Source: Mucilaginibacter sp. (GTDB lineage Bacteria; Bacteroidota; Bacteroidia; Sphingobacteriales; Sphingobacteriaceae). Taken from it: 36,707 nt of DNA. Positions 18,284-24,360 of this stretch are shown piece after piece (the first letter of the stretch is position 1; each line of letters opens with the position of its first letter). Under the pieces are notes generated by a model that was not told where the DNA came from, searched no databases, and saw nothing but the letters and a program-made list of their open reading frames with translations. The stretch is taken from NCBI GenBank assembly GCA_028288285.1, contig JAQBNZ010000075.1, positions 1 through 36,707 on the forward strand, in the 5' to 3' direction. A program made the position numbers and the translations under genes.

Positions 18284-19201
18284 TTAAGCCCTCGTATCAT
18301 TCCCGTTATAAATGCTCAGGTAACTGTCATAGCGTGAGGGTGCTATTTTCCCTTCTTCTATAGCTTCTAATATGGCGCATCCTGGTTCGTTAATGTGCCG
18401 ACAATTATTAAAGCGGCATTGGTTGAGCCTCTCACGCATCTCAGGAAAAAAGTGACTTAGTTCCTGTTTTTCAATGTCAATGACCCCTAATTCGCGGATG
18501 CCGGGAGTGTCAATTATATAACCGCCTTGTGGTAATTCAAACATTTCGGCAAAGGTTGTGGTGTGCATTCCTTTGTCGCTCCAGTCAGATATCATATTGG
18601 TGCGCAAATCAAGATCAGGCAATAGTTGGTTAATTAAACTTGACTTACCAACGCCTGAATGGCCTGAGAATAACGTTACCTTATCTTTTAGGAGGTTTTG
18701 TACTTTATCAATATTGGTTCCATCTAATGCAGAAACAGAATAACAAGGATAACCTATATTTTCGTAGATAGATTGATAATCGGCCAGAATCTCCAACCCC
18801 TCATCACTAAACAGATCGAGTTTATTAAATATCAGACAAGCGGGGATACCATAAGCTTCGGCGGTTACCAAAAAGCGGTCAATAAAGCCTAATGAAGTTC
18901 TCGGCGAGGCCAGGGTTACAACAAGCAAAGCCAGATCGAGGTTAGCTGCAATGATTTGAGCTTGTTTAGATAGATTGATGGATTTACGTATAATGTAGTT
19001 TTTGCGTTGGATAAGATTGGTAACGACGCCGGTGCCCTGTTCGGGTTCCATTTCAAAATCAACCACATCGCCTACCGCCAGCGGATTGGTTGTAGTTATT
19101 CCCTTAGTGCGGAATTTCCCCTTGATCCGGCAATCGATTGTTTGGTCGCCAGATCTTACCTGGTACCAGCTTCCTGTTGATTTAGTAACGAGCCCCTGCA
19201 T
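18284..19201 (-). CDS. rsgA: Ribosome small-subunit GTPase RsgA (YjeQ)
   Basis: A 305-residue circularly permuted GTPase that assists late 30S maturation. In order: an OB fold (about 1-70), then the G4 motif NKLD (126-129), the P-loop GHSGVGKS (180-187) and DTPG (about 231-234), which is the permuted order characteristic of RsgA. A C-terminal zinc knuckle is formed by C262, C267, H269 and C275. Length is normal (about 290-350). The ATG at 19201 fixes the OB start. It is the first gene of a minus-strand unit with dtd and diverges from the threonine operon, whose promoter begins about 56 bp away. Confidence 0.96.
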   Translation of the reverse strand: MQGLVTKSTGSWYQVRSGDQTIDCRIKGKFRTKGITTTNPLAVGDVVDFEMEPEQGTGVVTNLIQRKNYIIRKSINLSKQAQIIAANLDLALLVVTLASPRTSLGFIDRFLVTAEAYGIPACLIFNKLDLFSDEGLEILADYQSIYENIGYPCYSVSALDGTNIDKVQNLLKDKVTLFSGHSGVGKSSLINQLLPDLDLRTNMISDWSDKGMHTTTFAEMFELPQGGYIIDTPGIRELGVIDIEKQELSHFFPEMRERLNQCRFNNCRHINEPGCAILEAIEEGKIAPSRYDSYLSIYNGNDTRA

Positions 19202-19256: not shown

Positions 19257-19289
19257 TTTGTTATTTCAAATAAAATCTACTTACTTTAC
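19257..19289 (+). promoter_or_regulatory. Predicted thr operon promoter
   Basis: TTTG at 19257-19260, a 21-bp spacer, and TACTTTAC at 19282-19289 (six of the eight positions of TAnnTTTG counting the two free ones). The same TTTG-21-TACTTTAC layout recurs before the HD-domain gene. It would start RNA a few bases before the leader peptide ATG at 19303. Confidence 0.45.
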
Positions 19290-19302
19290 AGACATAATAT
19301 AT

Positions 19303-19368
19303 ATGACAATTAACAACACCACAATTACAACTATTATTACCACAGGGATAAAAAACGGAGGAAGATAA
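19303..19368 (+). CDS. thrL: Threonine operon leader peptide (thrL-like)
   Basis: A 21-codon ORF: MTINNTTITTIITTG, then IKNGGR and TAA. Seven of its codons are Thr and five are Ile, 12 of 21, which is far beyond chance. It has its own ATG and stop, lies directly downstream of a predicted promoter and 82 bp before thrA. Ile is made from Thr, so the pair of residues is exactly what the E. coli thr leader senses. The last three sense codons (GGA GGA AGA) supply the antiterminator strand. It is too short for normal gene finders. The gene name is by analogy of role and layout; common ancestry with the enterobacterial thrL is not claimed. Confidence 0.88.
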   Translation: MTINNTTITTIITTGIKNGGR

Positions 19369-19415
19369 TCGTATGGTGTAAAACATAACAACAAACCAAA
19401 TGAAAGCCTTCCTCC
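19357..19415 (+). promoter_or_regulatory. Antiterminator pairing of the thr attenuator
   Basis: GGAGGAAG (19357-19364), inside the leader ORF, is a perfect complement of CTTCCTCC (19408-19415), which covers most of the 5' arm of the terminator. A ribosome stalled at the Thr codon 19342-19344 would end close to base 19356 and leave this strand free; one that reaches the stop codon (19366-19368) would cover it. The pairing is seen directly; the footprint argument is standard attenuation logic. Confidence 0.8.
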
Positions 19416-19437
19416 TAAAAGAGGAAGGCTTTTTTTT
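19403..19437 (+). terminator. Rho-independent terminator of the thr attenuator
   Basis: AAAGCCTTCCTC (19403-19414), loop CTAAAA, GAGGAAGGCTTT (19421-19432): a perfect 12-bp stem with U tract T19430-T19437. It lies between the leader peptide and thrA, 13 bases before the thrA ATG. An in-frame ATG at 19400 overlaps it and was rejected as the thrA start. Confidence 0.93.
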
Positions 19438-19450
19438 ATTTATCACACAA

Positions 19451-21898
19451 ATGAAAATTTTAAAATTCGGTGGTACTTCTGTAGGTTCGGTAAGCAGCAT
19501 CCAAACCCTACTTAATATTTTAAAGGACGAAAACCAACAAGGCAACCGCCCTATTGTGGTGCTAAGTGCTATGAGCGGAGTAACCAATCTGCTAATATCC
19601 ATGGCAGAAGAAGCTGCTGCGGGAAACGATTTTACTGCCCAATTAGCCGAGCTGGAGAAGCGTCACTTTGATGTGGTGAAGGCATTGCTGGATATCCAGA
19701 ATCAAAACCCAGCATACACCCGTTTAAAGATCCACTTTAATCAGCTGGAAGAATTATTGCAGGGCGTATTAAGCTTGCGCGAACTTACACCCAAAACCCG
19801 CGACCAGATTGTAAGCTTTGGCGAGCGATGCTCAACATTAATGATAAGCAAGATAGCGGCACAATATTTTCCGGAGTCGTTGTTTGTTGATGCATCCGAA
19901 TTAATTAAAACTGATAGTGCTTTTGGCCAGGCAAAAGTGAATATAGAGCTGACCGAATTATTGATAAAGGGCTTTTACCGCGAGAATAACGACAAACTGT
20001 TATTTGTTACAGGGTTTATTGCCGGGAATGATGCAGGGCAGATCACAACGCTTGGCCGTGGAGGCAGTGATTACACCGCGGCTATATTTGGATCGGCATT
20101 AAATGCACAGGAAATAGAAATTTGGACAGATGTTAACGGAATGATGACAGCCGACCCGCGGATGGTTAAAAAAGCATTCTCGCTTGAGGAACTTTCTTAC
20201 ACCGAGGCCATGGAGCTTTCCTATTTTGGCGCCAAGGTGATCTATCCACCAACCATGATCCCGGCATTTTTAAAGAAGATTCCAATTGTTATAAAAAACA
20301 CTTTTGAGCCGGCATTTGTGGGTACGGTTATCCGCCATAATTGTAAATCATCAAATCTGCCAATTAAGGGAATCTCGTCTATAAGTAACATTAGCATATT
20401 GAATTTGGAAGGCAGCGGCATGGTTGGCAAATCGGGTTTTAGTGGCCGGTTGTTCTCTTTGCTTGCCCGCGAACAAATCAATATTATCCTTATTACCCAG
20501 TCATCATCAGAACATAGCATCACCTTTGCCGTTCAGCCGACCGAAGTGGAGAAAGCTAAATTGTTGATTGAGCAGGAATTTGAACTGGAGTTGCTTGCCA
20601 ACAAACTGGAACCGCTGGTTGTAGAAAAAGACCAGGCAATTTTAGCCGTAGTGGGAGAAAATATGAAACAAACGCCTGGAATGAGTGGCAAATTATTTCA
20701 TGCCCTGGGCCGTAATGGCGTTAATGTAAGAGCAATTGCACAAGGCTCATCGGAGTATAATATTTCGGTAATAATATCAGCAACAGATTTATCCAAAGCA
20801 TTAAATGCGGTGCATGATGCTTTCTTTATAGAACAAACTAAAACCCTGCATGCTTTCTGTTTGGGTACAGGTAATATTGGTAAAACATTGTTTAACCAAT
20901 TGAATGACCATCGCGATTTCCTGCAAAAAAATAACGGAATACAAGTTAAGATAGCCGGAATAAGCAACACCCGTAAAATGGTTTTTAATGCCGATGGCTT
21001 GCCATTAGATAGTTGGGAAGATGAACTGCAAGACTCAACATATACTGCAGATTTGCAGGAGTTTATTGCCAAAATGAAAGAAATGAACCTGCCCAATTGT
21101 GTGTTTGTTGATAACACTGCCAGCCCTAAACCCATTGCGTTTTATGAAGATGTTTTTAAATCGAATATATCTGTAGTAACCTGCAATAAAATCGGGAACT
21201 CTGCTTCATACAGCCAGTACAAAACCTTCAGGGATACTGCACGTAAGCATGGTGTTGATTTCTTTTATGAAACCAACGTTGGTGCCGGGTTGCCAATCAT
21301 TCGTACGTTAAAAGATCTGATGAGCAGTGGCGACAGGGTGCAACGCATTGAAGCTATCCTATCGGGTACAATTTCATTTATCTTTAATCATTTTAAGGGC
21401 AATGCCAACTTTCATGATGTGGTAAAAGAAGCGCAGGAAAAAGGGTATACCGAACCCGATCCCCGTGATGACCTAAGCGGGAAAGATTTTATGCGCAAGA
21501 TGTTAATATTGGCCCGCGATGCCGGTTATGAAATGGAAGAAGCCGATGTGCAGATAGAGAACATATTGCCACAAGACTGCCTTGATGCACAAACGGTTGA
21601 TGATTTCTACGCCGCACTTAAAAGCGAGGATGCCTTTTTCGCTAACATAAAAGACCAGGCCGAGGCCGGTAAAAAAGTTTTGCGCTACATTGGCAAACTG
21701 GAAGATGGCAAGGCATCCATTACCCTGCAAATGGTTGATGAGAACCATCCGTTCTACATGCTATCAGGCAGTGACAATATTATATCATTTACCACTGATA
21801 GATACAAAGAGCGCCCACTGGTAGTAAAAGGTCCGGGTGCCGGTGCGGAAGTAACAGCCGCGGGTGTATTTGCAGACCTTATAAATGTGGGTGCCTAA
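19451..21898 (+). CDS. thrA: Bifunctional aspartokinase / homoserine dehydrogenase ThrA
   Basis: Started at the ATG at 19451 because MKILKFGGTSVGS is the classical aspartokinase N terminus; the ATG at 19400 is in the terminator. The 815-residue product has the aspartokinase domain (about 1-290, with KFGGTSVGS, TLGRGGSDYTAA and WTDVNGMMTADPR), two ACT-like regulatory segments (about 300-445), and a homoserine dehydrogenase domain (about 460-815, with GTGNIGKTL, VTCNKIG, ETNVGAGLPII and GYTEPDPRDDLSGKDFMRK). It makes aspartyl phosphate and later homoserine. ACT domains allow feedback by threonine. It is the first structural gene of thrABC and is controlled by the upstream attenuator. Confidence 0.97.
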   Translation: MKILKFGGTSVGSVSSIQTLLNILKDENQQGNRPIVVLSAMSGVTNLLISMAEEAAAGNDFTAQLAELEKRHFDVVKALLDIQNQNPAYTRLKIHFNQLEELLQGVLSLRELTPKTRDQIVSFGERCSTLMISKIAAQYFPESLFVDASELIKTDSAFGQAKVNIELTELLIKGFYRENNDKLLFVTGFIAGNDAGQITTLGRGGSDYTAAIFGSALNAQEIEIWTDVNGMMTADPRMVKKAFSLEELSYTEAMELSYFGAKVIYPPTMIPAFLKKIPIVIKNTFEPAFVGTVIRHNCKSSNLPIKGISSISNISILNLEGSGMVGKSGFSGRLFSLLAREQINIILITQSSSEHSITFAVQPTEVEKAKLLIEQEFELELLANKLEPLVVEKDQAILAVVGENMKQTPGMSGKLFHALGRNGVNVRAIAQGSSEYNISVIISATDLSKALNAVHDAFFIEQTKTLHAFCLGTGNIGKTLFNQLNDHRDFLQKNNGIQVKIAGISNTRKMVFNADGLPLDSWEDELQDSTYTADLQEFIAKMKEMNLPNCVFVDNTASPKPIAFYEDVFKSNISVVTCNKIGNSASYSQYKTFRDTARKHGVDFFYETNVGAGLPIIRTLKDLMSSGDRVQRIEAILSGTISFIFNHFKGNANFHDVVKEAQEKGYTEPDPRDDLSGKDFMRKMLILARDAGYEMEEADVQIENILPQDCLDAQTVDDFYAALKSEDAFFANIKDQAEAGKKVLRYIGKLEDGKASITLQMVDENHPFYMLSGSDNIISFTTDRYKERPLVVKGPGAGAEVTAAGVFADLINVGA

Positions 21899-21932: not shown

Positions 21933-22928
21933 ATGGAAAATATAAACGATTCAAAAAGTCCGCTGCAAATAGTAACTCATCCTTCAGGGAGCTTGGGGAC
22001 ATCCGTTTCTGTCTTTGCGCCAGCTACTGTTGCTAATGTGGTTTGCGGGTTTGATGTACTTGGTTTCGCGGTGAATGAACCGGGAGATGAAGTGATTATG
22101 CGCATAACTGGTAAGCCCGGTATTACCATTAGTAAAATTACCGGTGACGATGGCCGCCTGCCGCTTAATCCGGCCAAAAATACGGTGAGCGTAAGTGTGC
22201 AGCATTATTTGCAAAGTATTGACCGTACAGATATTGGTTTGGATATTGAACTGCACAAGAAAATGCCGATAGGCAGCGGATTGGGTTCAAGTTCGGCGAG
22301 TACCGTTGCCGGTTTGTTTGCCATAAAAACATTATTAGAAGACAATTCTGATCCCTCAACATTATTACCGTTTGCCATGAAGGGCGAAGAAATGGCTTGC
22401 GGGCATGGCCATGCGGATAACGTTGCTCCGGCATTACTGGGTGGCTTTGTTTTGATTCGTAGCTATGATCCATTGGATGTGGTTAGACTACCCCATCCGC
22501 CGGGTTTATGGTGTGCCATCGTTTTCCCGGATGTTGATGTACCTACCCGCGAGGCAAGGCAGATTATCCGCAACAAAATATTAATGAAAGATGCTGTTAC
22601 GCAGTGGGGCAACATAGCCGGGCTGGTAAGTGGCTTATTTATGCAAGATATTGATTTGATAGGCCGCAGTATGAAGGATGTGCTGGTTGAGCCGGTACGT
22701 TCAATGCTTATCCCCGATTTTTATGTGATGCGTGAGATGGCTATGGAGATGGGTGCTGTAAGCTTCGGTATCTCAGGCTCTGGCCCGTCTGTATTTGCAT
22801 TTACCCGCGATGAAGAAACAGCCAAACGTATTACCCATAAATTGCAACAGCATTTAACAAATATAAAAATTGGTTCAAATGGGTATGTATCTACCATAAA
22901 TGATAAAGGGCCAAGAGTAATAGGGTAG
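21933..22928 (+). CDS. thrB: Homoserine kinase ThrB
   Basis: A 331-residue GHMP kinase that phosphorylates homoserine. The N-terminal region VFAPATVANVVCGFDVLGFAV, the ATP-binding PIGSGLGSSSASTVAGLFAI (GHMP motif 2) and the C-terminal GISGSGPSVFAF motif are all present. The ATG at 21933 gives an N-terminal extension of about 25 residues before VSVFAPATV, typical of Bacteroidota forms. It follows thrA by 34 bp and precedes thrC by 121 bp, with a palindromic repeat element in the second gap. It supplies the substrate of ThrC. Confidence 0.96.
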   Translation: MENINDSKSPLQIVTHPSGSLGTSVSVFAPATVANVVCGFDVLGFAVNEPGDEVIMRITGKPGITISKITGDDGRLPLNPAKNTVSVSVQHYLQSIDRTDIGLDIELHKKMPIGSGLGSSSASTVAGLFAIKTLLEDNSDPSTLLPFAMKGEEMACGHGHADNVAPALLGGFVLIRSYDPLDVVRLPHPPGLWCAIVFPDVDVPTREARQIIRNKILMKDAVTQWGNIAGLVSGLFMQDIDLIGRSMKDVLVEPVRSMLIPDFYVMREMAMEMGAVSFGISGSGPSVFAFTRDEETAKRITHKLQQHLTNIKIGSNGYVSTINDKGPRVIG

Positions 22929-23049: not shown

Positions 23050-24360
23050 ATGAAATTCTACAGCACCAATAATACAGACCTAAGGGTTGGCTTTAAAGAA
23101 GCCGTGTTTAATAGCATGCCACAGGATAAGGGTTTATATATGCCGGTGAGCATCCCGCGGTTAGAAGATAAATTTATTAATAACCTGGACCAATACACGC
23201 TGCCTGAGATTGCTTTTCATGTGGCTCAAAACTTATTAGGTGATGATATACCTGCAAATGACCTGAAAGCTATTATTTATGATGCCATAAACTTTTATGC
23301 ACCTATTGAAAAGTTAGAGCAGAACGTATACGTGCTGGAGCTTTTTCACGGGCCATCACTGGCATTTAAGGATTTTGGCGCACGTTTCATGAGCCGGGTG
23401 ATGAGCTACTTTTTAGAAGAAGGTGAAAAGCAATTGGATGTACTGGTAGCCACATCCGGAGATACTGGTGGCGCTGTTGCTCTTGGTTTTTTAGGCGTGC
23501 CCAATACAAGGGTGACTATCCTTTATCCCAAAGGCAAAGTAAGCCAAATACAAGAACTGCAACTAACAACTAACGGACAAAACATTCGTGCGCTTGAAAT
23601 TGACGGCACATTTGATGATTGCCAGGCACTGGTTAAACAAGCCTTTACAGATGCAGAGCTTAATGAGAAGTTTAGGTTAACGTCTGCAAACTCCATTAAT
23701 ATAGCCCGGTTAATTCCTCAAACGTTTTATTATTTTAATGCTTATGCACAACTTTTAAAAGAAGGCATCAGCAAGGTTGTTTTTGCGGTACCCAGCGGAA
23801 ACTTCGGTAACATAGGTGCCGGCCTGTTAGCCTGGAAGATGGGCTTGCCTGTAGAGCAGTTTATTGCAGCCACCAACGTTAACGATACCGTGCCTGAGTT
23901 TTTAAAGACAGGAATCTATCAGCCTAAGCCCTCTGTAGCCACCCTATCTAACGCCATGGACGTAGGTAACCCCAGCAACTGGGTAAGAATTGCTGATATG
24001 TTTAAAGATAACGCAGGGGCGCTAAAAAGCCTTATTTCAGGCTATCGTTATACCGACGAGGAAACCCTTGAAGCAATGGACGCTATATTTAAACAGTATG
24101 ATTATGTAGCTTGTCCGCATACGGCTATTGCATGGAAAGCATTGAAAGCATATCAAGCGAAACATTTGGCCACAGATACCGCCGGAGTGTTTTTATCAAC
24201 AGCGCACCCATGCAAATTCCCGGATGTGTTTACTCAGGAGATAGCAGACAAAGTTGAGATCCCGGTACAGGTTGCTGAATTAGAGAAAAAAGAACGGCAA
24301 GCAGTAAGTTTAGGGAAAGATTTTAAAGGATTTAAAGGATATTTGCTGAATAATGCATAG
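23050..24360 (+). CDS. thrC: Threonine synthase ThrC
   Basis: A 436-residue PLP enzyme that turns O-phosphohomoserine into threonine. The FHGPSLAFKDFGARF segment carries the Lys that holds PLP (in AFKDFGA, about residue 108). The SGDTGGAVALGF loop, PSGNFGNIGAGLLAWKMGLP phosphate-binding region and the late STAHPCKFPDVF motif are all in place. It is of the long ThrC type (E. coli/fungal-like). It follows thrB by 121 bp. Its last eight bases overlap an ATG that could start the next gene, so coupling is possible. Threonine made here would feed back through the leader peptide. Confidence 0.97.
   Translation: MKFYSTNNTDLRVGFKEAVFNSMPQDKGLYMPVSIPRLEDKFINNLDQYTLPEIAFHVAQNLLGDDIPANDLKAIIYDAINFYAPIEKLEQNVYVLELFHGPSLAFKDFGARFMSRVMSYFLEEGEKQLDVLVATSGDTGGAVALGFLGVPNTRVTILYPKGKVSQIQELQLTTNGQNIRALEIDGTFDDCQALVKQAFTDAELNEKFRLTSANSINIARLIPQTFYYFNAYAQLLKEGISKVVFAVPSGNFGNIGAGLLAWKMGLPVEQFIAATNVNDTVPEFLKTGIYQPKPSVATLSNAMDVGNPSNWVRIADMFKDNAGALKSLISGYRYTDEETLEAMDAIFKQYDYVACPHTAIAWKALKAYQAKHLATDTAGVFLSTAHPCKFPDVFTQEIADKVEIPVQVAELEKKERQAVSLGKDFKGFKGYLLNNA

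Follow-up and report, generated by a model that had tools for sequence, protein, structure and literature searches.

Amino-acid attenuation is a textbook mechanism in enterobacteria and is little documented in Bacteroidota, a phylum whose ribosomes work largely without Shine-Dalgarno pairing. The thrABC operon of a soil bacterium of the genus Mucilaginibacter (Sphingobacteriaceae; assembly 76% complete, 257 contigs) raises the question of whether such a device precedes it. The window, i.e. the whole stretch of 36,707 nucleotides that was analysed, carries a short Thr/Ile-rich reading frame and an intrinsic terminator before thrA, which an earlier note had read as a complete Thr/Ile transcription attenuator. 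From the comparative analysis described below we conclude that the attenuator is real, conserved and of the classical Thr/Ile type, in a phylum with few such documented devices.

The thrABC leader region of Mucilaginibacter

The genes thrA (bifunctional aspartate kinase/homoserine dehydrogenase I, 19451–21898; NF006959, 1051 bits), thrB (homoserine kinase, 21933–22928; NF002288/TIGR00191) and thrC (threonine synthase, 23050–24360; TIGR00260) were named from NCBIfam profiles and all lie on the plus strand; the true start of thrB is probably downstream of 21933. ThrA is 97% identical to that of a Mucilaginibacter MAG and about 75–91% identical to those of other Mucilaginibacter. The profile match begins at residue 18 of a longer open reading frame, i.e. 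at the ATG at 19451, and an in-frame ATG at 19400, in the terminator region, was rejected as the thrA start. That ATG adds 17 codons to the frame, and automatic annotation could pick it wrongly. An RsgA-type GTPase gene lies upstream (18284–19201) on the minus strand, opposite in direction to thrA, and the terminator at 19403–19432 therefore cannot be its own. An Rfam scan of the window at gathering thresholds found only a tRNA.

The promoter candidate of Bacteroidota type was read directly as a −33-like element, TTTG (19257–19260), and a −7-like element of the TAnnTTTG type, TTACTTTA (19281–19288). Both are conserved upstream in relatives, where a TTG-rich element is kept at the first position and several loci have TTACTTTG at the second. 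Transcription would start about 5–10 nt downstream of the −7-like element. The leader reading frame extends from the ATG at 19303 to the TAA at 19368 and encodes MTINNTTITTIITTGIKNGGR, 21 codons including 7 Thr and 5 Ile; the peptide and its stop are conserved in relatives. The terminator consists of 12 perfect pairs between AAAGCCTTCCTC (19403–19414) and GAGGAAGGCTTT (19421–19432), and a run of eight T (19430–19437) completes it. Leader composition and terminator are thus, base by base, as first described.

Six segments of the plus strand can be distinguished in the leader transcript. Segment 1 (A) is ACACCA in the early Asn/Thr codons (19316–19321). Segment 2a (B) is GGAGGAAG in the final leader codons (19357–19364), which is exactly complementary to CTTCCTCC (19408–19415) and provides the 5′ strand of the antiterminator. 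Segment 2b (C), UGGUGU, directly follows the leader stop (19374–19379). Segment D, ACCA (19395–19398), is conserved; lying inside the antiterminator, it can serve as the alternative partner of C, and the putative UGGU:ACCA pairing would extend the antiterminator inwards. Segment 3 (E, 19403–19415) comprises the 5′ arm of the terminator and, within it, CTTCCTCC, which is also the 3′ strand of the antiterminator. Segment 4 (F, 19421–19432) is the 3′ arm of the terminator. A second tiny reading frame after the leader stop, ATG-GTG-TAA, conserved within the genus as AUGGUGUAA, was set aside because the pairing accounts for the same bases and its 'start' is GTG or TTG in some loci.

A 171-nt stretch of this region folds far above chance (z −4.4 against dinucleotide shuffles). 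A perfect 8-nt complement to the terminator arm arose in 137 of 100000 base-shuffled leaders and in 3579 of 100000 codon-shuffled ones. Since this measure makes the sequence, taken alone, only moderately unlikely, the comparative evidence is decisive.

Conservation and covariation across Sphingobacteriaceae

The DNA before thrA was collected from the window and 80 further loci, almost all from Mucilaginibacter, from 50 loci of other Sphingobacteriaceae genera and from 77 loci of other families. Mucilaginibacter apart, the genus names used here (Pedobacter, Sphingobacterium) are ones that we infer. A script searched for a Thr/Ile-rich short reading frame, an intrinsic terminator and at least six uninterrupted pairs joining the end of the leader to the terminator 5′ arm. 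It detected the attenuator at 122 of 131 Sphingobacteriaceae loci, i.e. 79/81 in the Mucilaginibacter set and 43/50 in the other genera, with a background of 5 positives among 1481 control stretches. Some script-negative loci of the family carry the device with interrupted pairing (e.g. L148). The script found the combination of leader, terminator and pairing at none of the 77 thrA loci of other families of the class.

The leader has 21 codons nearly always in Mucilaginibacter. Its stop varies and is kept (TAA, TAG and TGA in 60, 10 and 5 loci), and Thr codons are found exchanged for Ile codons and the reverse. Almost every locus ends its leader with GGA GGA AGA, Gly-Gly being fixed at the codon level, and position −9 is always ACC. 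This codon-level conservation points to a translated leader. Throughout the genus, four codons (Gly and three variable residues) lie between the last Thr codon and the antiterminator strand, so that the spacing suits a stalled-ribosome model, as had been proposed. In several Mucilaginibacter loci a repeat-like element with CCTCTCC/GGAGAGG inverted repeats is inserted between the attenuator and thrA (L032, L034, L037, L040, L041, L044, L046, L059, L061 and L062); L267 has a comparable palindrome close to hisG.

The end of the leader changes together with the terminator. This is clearest where the arms have diverged, as in L157 of the Pedobacter-like genus g67 (TGGGGG:CCCCCA), in L150 (CGGGG) and in L148 (GATGGGGA..CGC with GCGCTCCCGATC). 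Among 62 non-redundant loci, pairing between leader end and terminator arm averaged −15.6 kcal/mol for true partners and −13.5 kcal/mol when partners were swapped between genera; the corresponding values for the A:C leader hairpin were −11.9 and −10.0 kcal/mol. Swapped partners matched the stability of true ones in 0 of 10000 permutations for the antiterminator and A:C alike, counts that are descriptive rather than strict probabilities because the loci are related.

Stem statistics were obtained from an alignment of 46 sequences. The terminator was 96% paired, with changes on both sides at 10 of 12 pairs, and the antiterminator 80% paired, with such changes at 5 of 8 pairs. The A:C hairpin was 76% paired, compared to 26–39% for slid partners. 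For the antiterminator and A:C, pairs changed on both sides were no more numerous than in shuffles, whereas the number of paired cells and the covariation score exceeded those of shuffles. The alignment that the earlier note had suggested therefore yielded both compensatory changes and retained Thr/Ile codons. Its claim that antiterminator and terminator exclude each other is likewise supported, by the exact GGAGGAAG:CTTCCTCC complementarity and by covariation across the family, which argue for mutually exclusive structures.

A probable protector hairpin in the leader

The claim that a clear 1:2 hairpin is lacking did not survive the comparison, as such a hairpin exists in the family and covaries across genera. 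In Sphingobacteriaceae early Thr codons form a stem with the sequence directly after the leader stop: ACACCA (A) with UGGUGU (C) in the window, and in other genera ATTACAAC with GTTGTAAT (L133–L137), TATACCAT with ATGGTATA (L167) and GTTTACA with TGTAAAC (L177). Leader plus segment C folded more stably than synonymous-codon reshuffles encoding the same peptide; this held for 43 of the 45 loci, with a mean z of −1.87. In the window the hairpin has little stability (−7.8 kcal/mol) and does not outdo synonymous-codon shuffles (z +0.55), whereas several genera of the family have a strong one. Since A:C pairing crosses B:E pairing, the two exclude each other, and we take A:C to be a protector hairpin, a weak one in this species.

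Proposed mechanism and alternatives

A Thr/Ile leader, an intrinsic terminator before thrA and a covarying antiterminator were all found, features that would assign the device to the attenuator class. Judged from the sequences, thrABC is very probably controlled by ribosome-mediated transcription attenuation of the classical type. When charged tRNA-Thr (or tRNA-Ile) is scarce, the ribosome would stall on the Thr/Ile codons; GGAGGAAG would then be free to pair with CUUCCUCC, the terminator would be blocked and thrABC transcribed. When Thr and Ile are plentiful, translation would proceed to the stop codon, and the ribosome would cover GGAGGAAG and the stretch that follows. The terminator would then form and transcription would end before thrA. 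Where the leader is untranslated, a strong protector hairpin would favour termination. As this hairpin is weak here, mutation of the leader start in this species may give readthrough rather than superattenuation.

Folding with a simple, crude ribosome mask, applied to transcripts ending before the terminator 3′ arm, gave a mean antiterminator probability of 0.82 with the ribosome at the last Thr codon, 0.07 with the ribosome at the stop codon and 0.70 without a ribosome; the values for the window were 0.87, 0.08 and 0.87. As a positive control the same mask was applied to the E. coli thr leader, whose antiterminator was not freed by a stall at the last Thr codon. In equilibrium folding the terminator prevails at almost all loci regardless of ribosome position. 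The switch must then rest on kinetics, a dependence common to all attenuation models of this kind.

The values for the window bear on a simpler reading, a device of three segments (leader end, terminator arm and terminator) in which ribosome position decides and no protector works in this species. The weakness of the A:C hairpin fits it, as does the failure of A:C to reduce the antiterminator probability when no ribosome is present (0.87). The A and C segments are nonetheless conserved and covary across Sphingobacteriaceae, and several genera have a strong hairpin, so we consider this reading possible but doubtful.

Two further explanations would dispense with the stalled ribosome. The hairpin might be a constitutive terminator that only damps thrABC or ends a small RNA, the small reading frame being accidental. 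The terminator is real and strong, and regulation of thrABC is predicted from sequence; yet the frame of the leader, its stop, its Thr/Ile content and its complementarity to the terminator are all kept across more than 120 loci, which makes this explanation highly improbable. Slightly more improbable still is a metabolite- or protein-sensing RNA (riboswitch, T-box or target of an RNA-binding repressor) acting on the same terminator. It would account for AUCGUAUGGUGUAAA, located between leader stop and terminator and highly conserved within the genus, but this conservation is explained by pairing with the leader codons, with which the stretch co-changes in other genera. Moreover, no riboswitch or T-box was matched in Rfam at the gathering threshold, and weaker matches were at chance level, Thr_leader excepted.

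Comparison with known attenuators

The expectation that the device would work like enterobacterial thrL was upheld on paper, but the accompanying statement that the leader is unlike that of E. coli in detail overstated the difference. Both leaders are Thr/Ile-rich, 66 nt long and of 21 codons, and both contain ATTACCACAGG (I-T-T-G) near the end. As in the window, the last codons of thrL (GGTGCGGGC) can pair with the 5′ arm (GCCCGCACC) of an intrinsic terminator, and thrA begins about 82 nt past the leader stop in E. coli and at an almost equal distance here. The window differs from thrL in its arm sequences, in a wider spacer between the last Thr codon and the antiterminator strand, and in its Bacteroidota promoter. 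The Rfam model RF00506 (Thr_leader) scored the window at 38.8 bits and two relatives at 33.7 and 28.0 bits; as the gathering threshold is 55, we do not place the window attenuator in this family, even though it functions like thrL on paper. In the alignment to RF00506 most of the modelled 1:2 stem has no pairing, and the score comes largely from the terminator.

Transfer of the thr operon from enterobacteria was rejected as unsupported. The 88 N-terminal residues of ThrA are 32% identical to E. coli ThrA and 41–51% identical to ThrA from Bacteroidia outside the family, and over this region the window's protein resembles E. coli ThrA no more than the proteins of other Bacteroidia do. Because ThrA shows no special closeness to E. 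coli and the layout is absent from other Bacteroidia families, the sequences make convergence with the enterobacterial layout more likely than recent transfer. A separate case concerns a genome from another family (L178/L199; genome G125, family f36). Its ThrA is 63% identical to that of the window despite the different family, and upstream of thrA there are a short leader with CATGGAGG at its end and a terminator of the CCTTCCTC type; this suggests that thrA and its leader were transferred from a Sphingobacteriaceae-like donor.

The Bacteroid-trp motif is linked to trp genes, as its name indicates. None of the scanned loci matched this motif (RF01692). It is listed among the cis-regulatory RNA motifs of Bacteroidetes (PMC2864571). 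In Flavobacterium psychrophilum, of the same phylum, leader-peptide attenuation has been reported upstream of amino-acid operons, in a main text without thrA detail (PMC9723704). Candidate leader sORFs have been reported for Bacteroides thetaiotaomicron in a general statement. No account of thr attenuation in Bacteroidota turned up in the open literature searched, where leader attenuation is treated in general statements only; an earlier prediction of the thr case is possible, and the survey of Lopatovskaya et al. (2010) may, by its title, cover it.

Other leader designs in Bacteroidia

As the window genome's own hisG (L295) sits at the edge of contig C112 and the matches for ilvD and trpE in that genome were below the cut-off, other operons were examined in relatives. 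In genus g67, probably Pedobacter, two genomes (L283 and L284) carry an ilvD leader of the same classical antiterminator/terminator design, with an Ile/Val-rich leader peptide, MNLNTNIISNIIIVISQQRGGYRCV, and the terminator GAAACCGCCTCCGAAACGAGGCGGTTTT.

The thr leaders of other families differ in design from that of Sphingobacteriaceae. In at least nine other families of Bacteroidia they end in a small perfect hairpin across or beside the stop codon, e.g. ACCCC/GGGGT, ACGGG/CCCGT or CAACCC/GGGTTG. This hairpin precedes thrA at 21 of 77 other-family loci, compared to 0 of 131 Sphingobacteriaceae loci and 3 of 1500 controls; the thr loci with it include L180, L184, L186, L212, L220, L222, L224, L228–L235, L240, L243, L246, L250 and L253. 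The leaders are Thr/Ile-rich and are often followed by CATATAATCC or CATATCACC, and no intrinsic terminator is evident in them. The leaders upstream of hisG in Sphingobacteriaceae (L271–L278 and L295) are His-rich, e.g. MGRFNLHHLHLHHRHHMATR, and have a stop-codon hairpin, ATCGCC/GGCGAT, detected by script in four of nine loci and by eye in others. A hairpin with a UACGU loop often follows the his leader hairpin and also occurs in the thr leaders of family f33 (L253, L255 and L258). Neither the thr nor the his stop-codon-hairpin leaders matched Rfam.

We tentatively propose, at somewhat less than even chance, that Bacteroidota use two unrelated leader designs. The thr leaders of Sphingobacteriaceae and the ilv leaders of Pedobacter would have reached the enterobacterial layout independently; the thr leaders of other families and the his leaders of Sphingobacteriaceae would use an undescribed stop-codon hairpin, partly with a second, UACGU-loop hairpin and without an intrinsic terminator. 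The stop-codon-hairpin design is possibly the more novel lead of the two.

A thr attenuator that covaries throughout a family is a ready system in which to test the coupling of leader translation to transcription against that of E. coli. The alignment of these attenuators could serve as the basis for an RNA family, and two leader designs within one phylum would make attenuator evolution testable.
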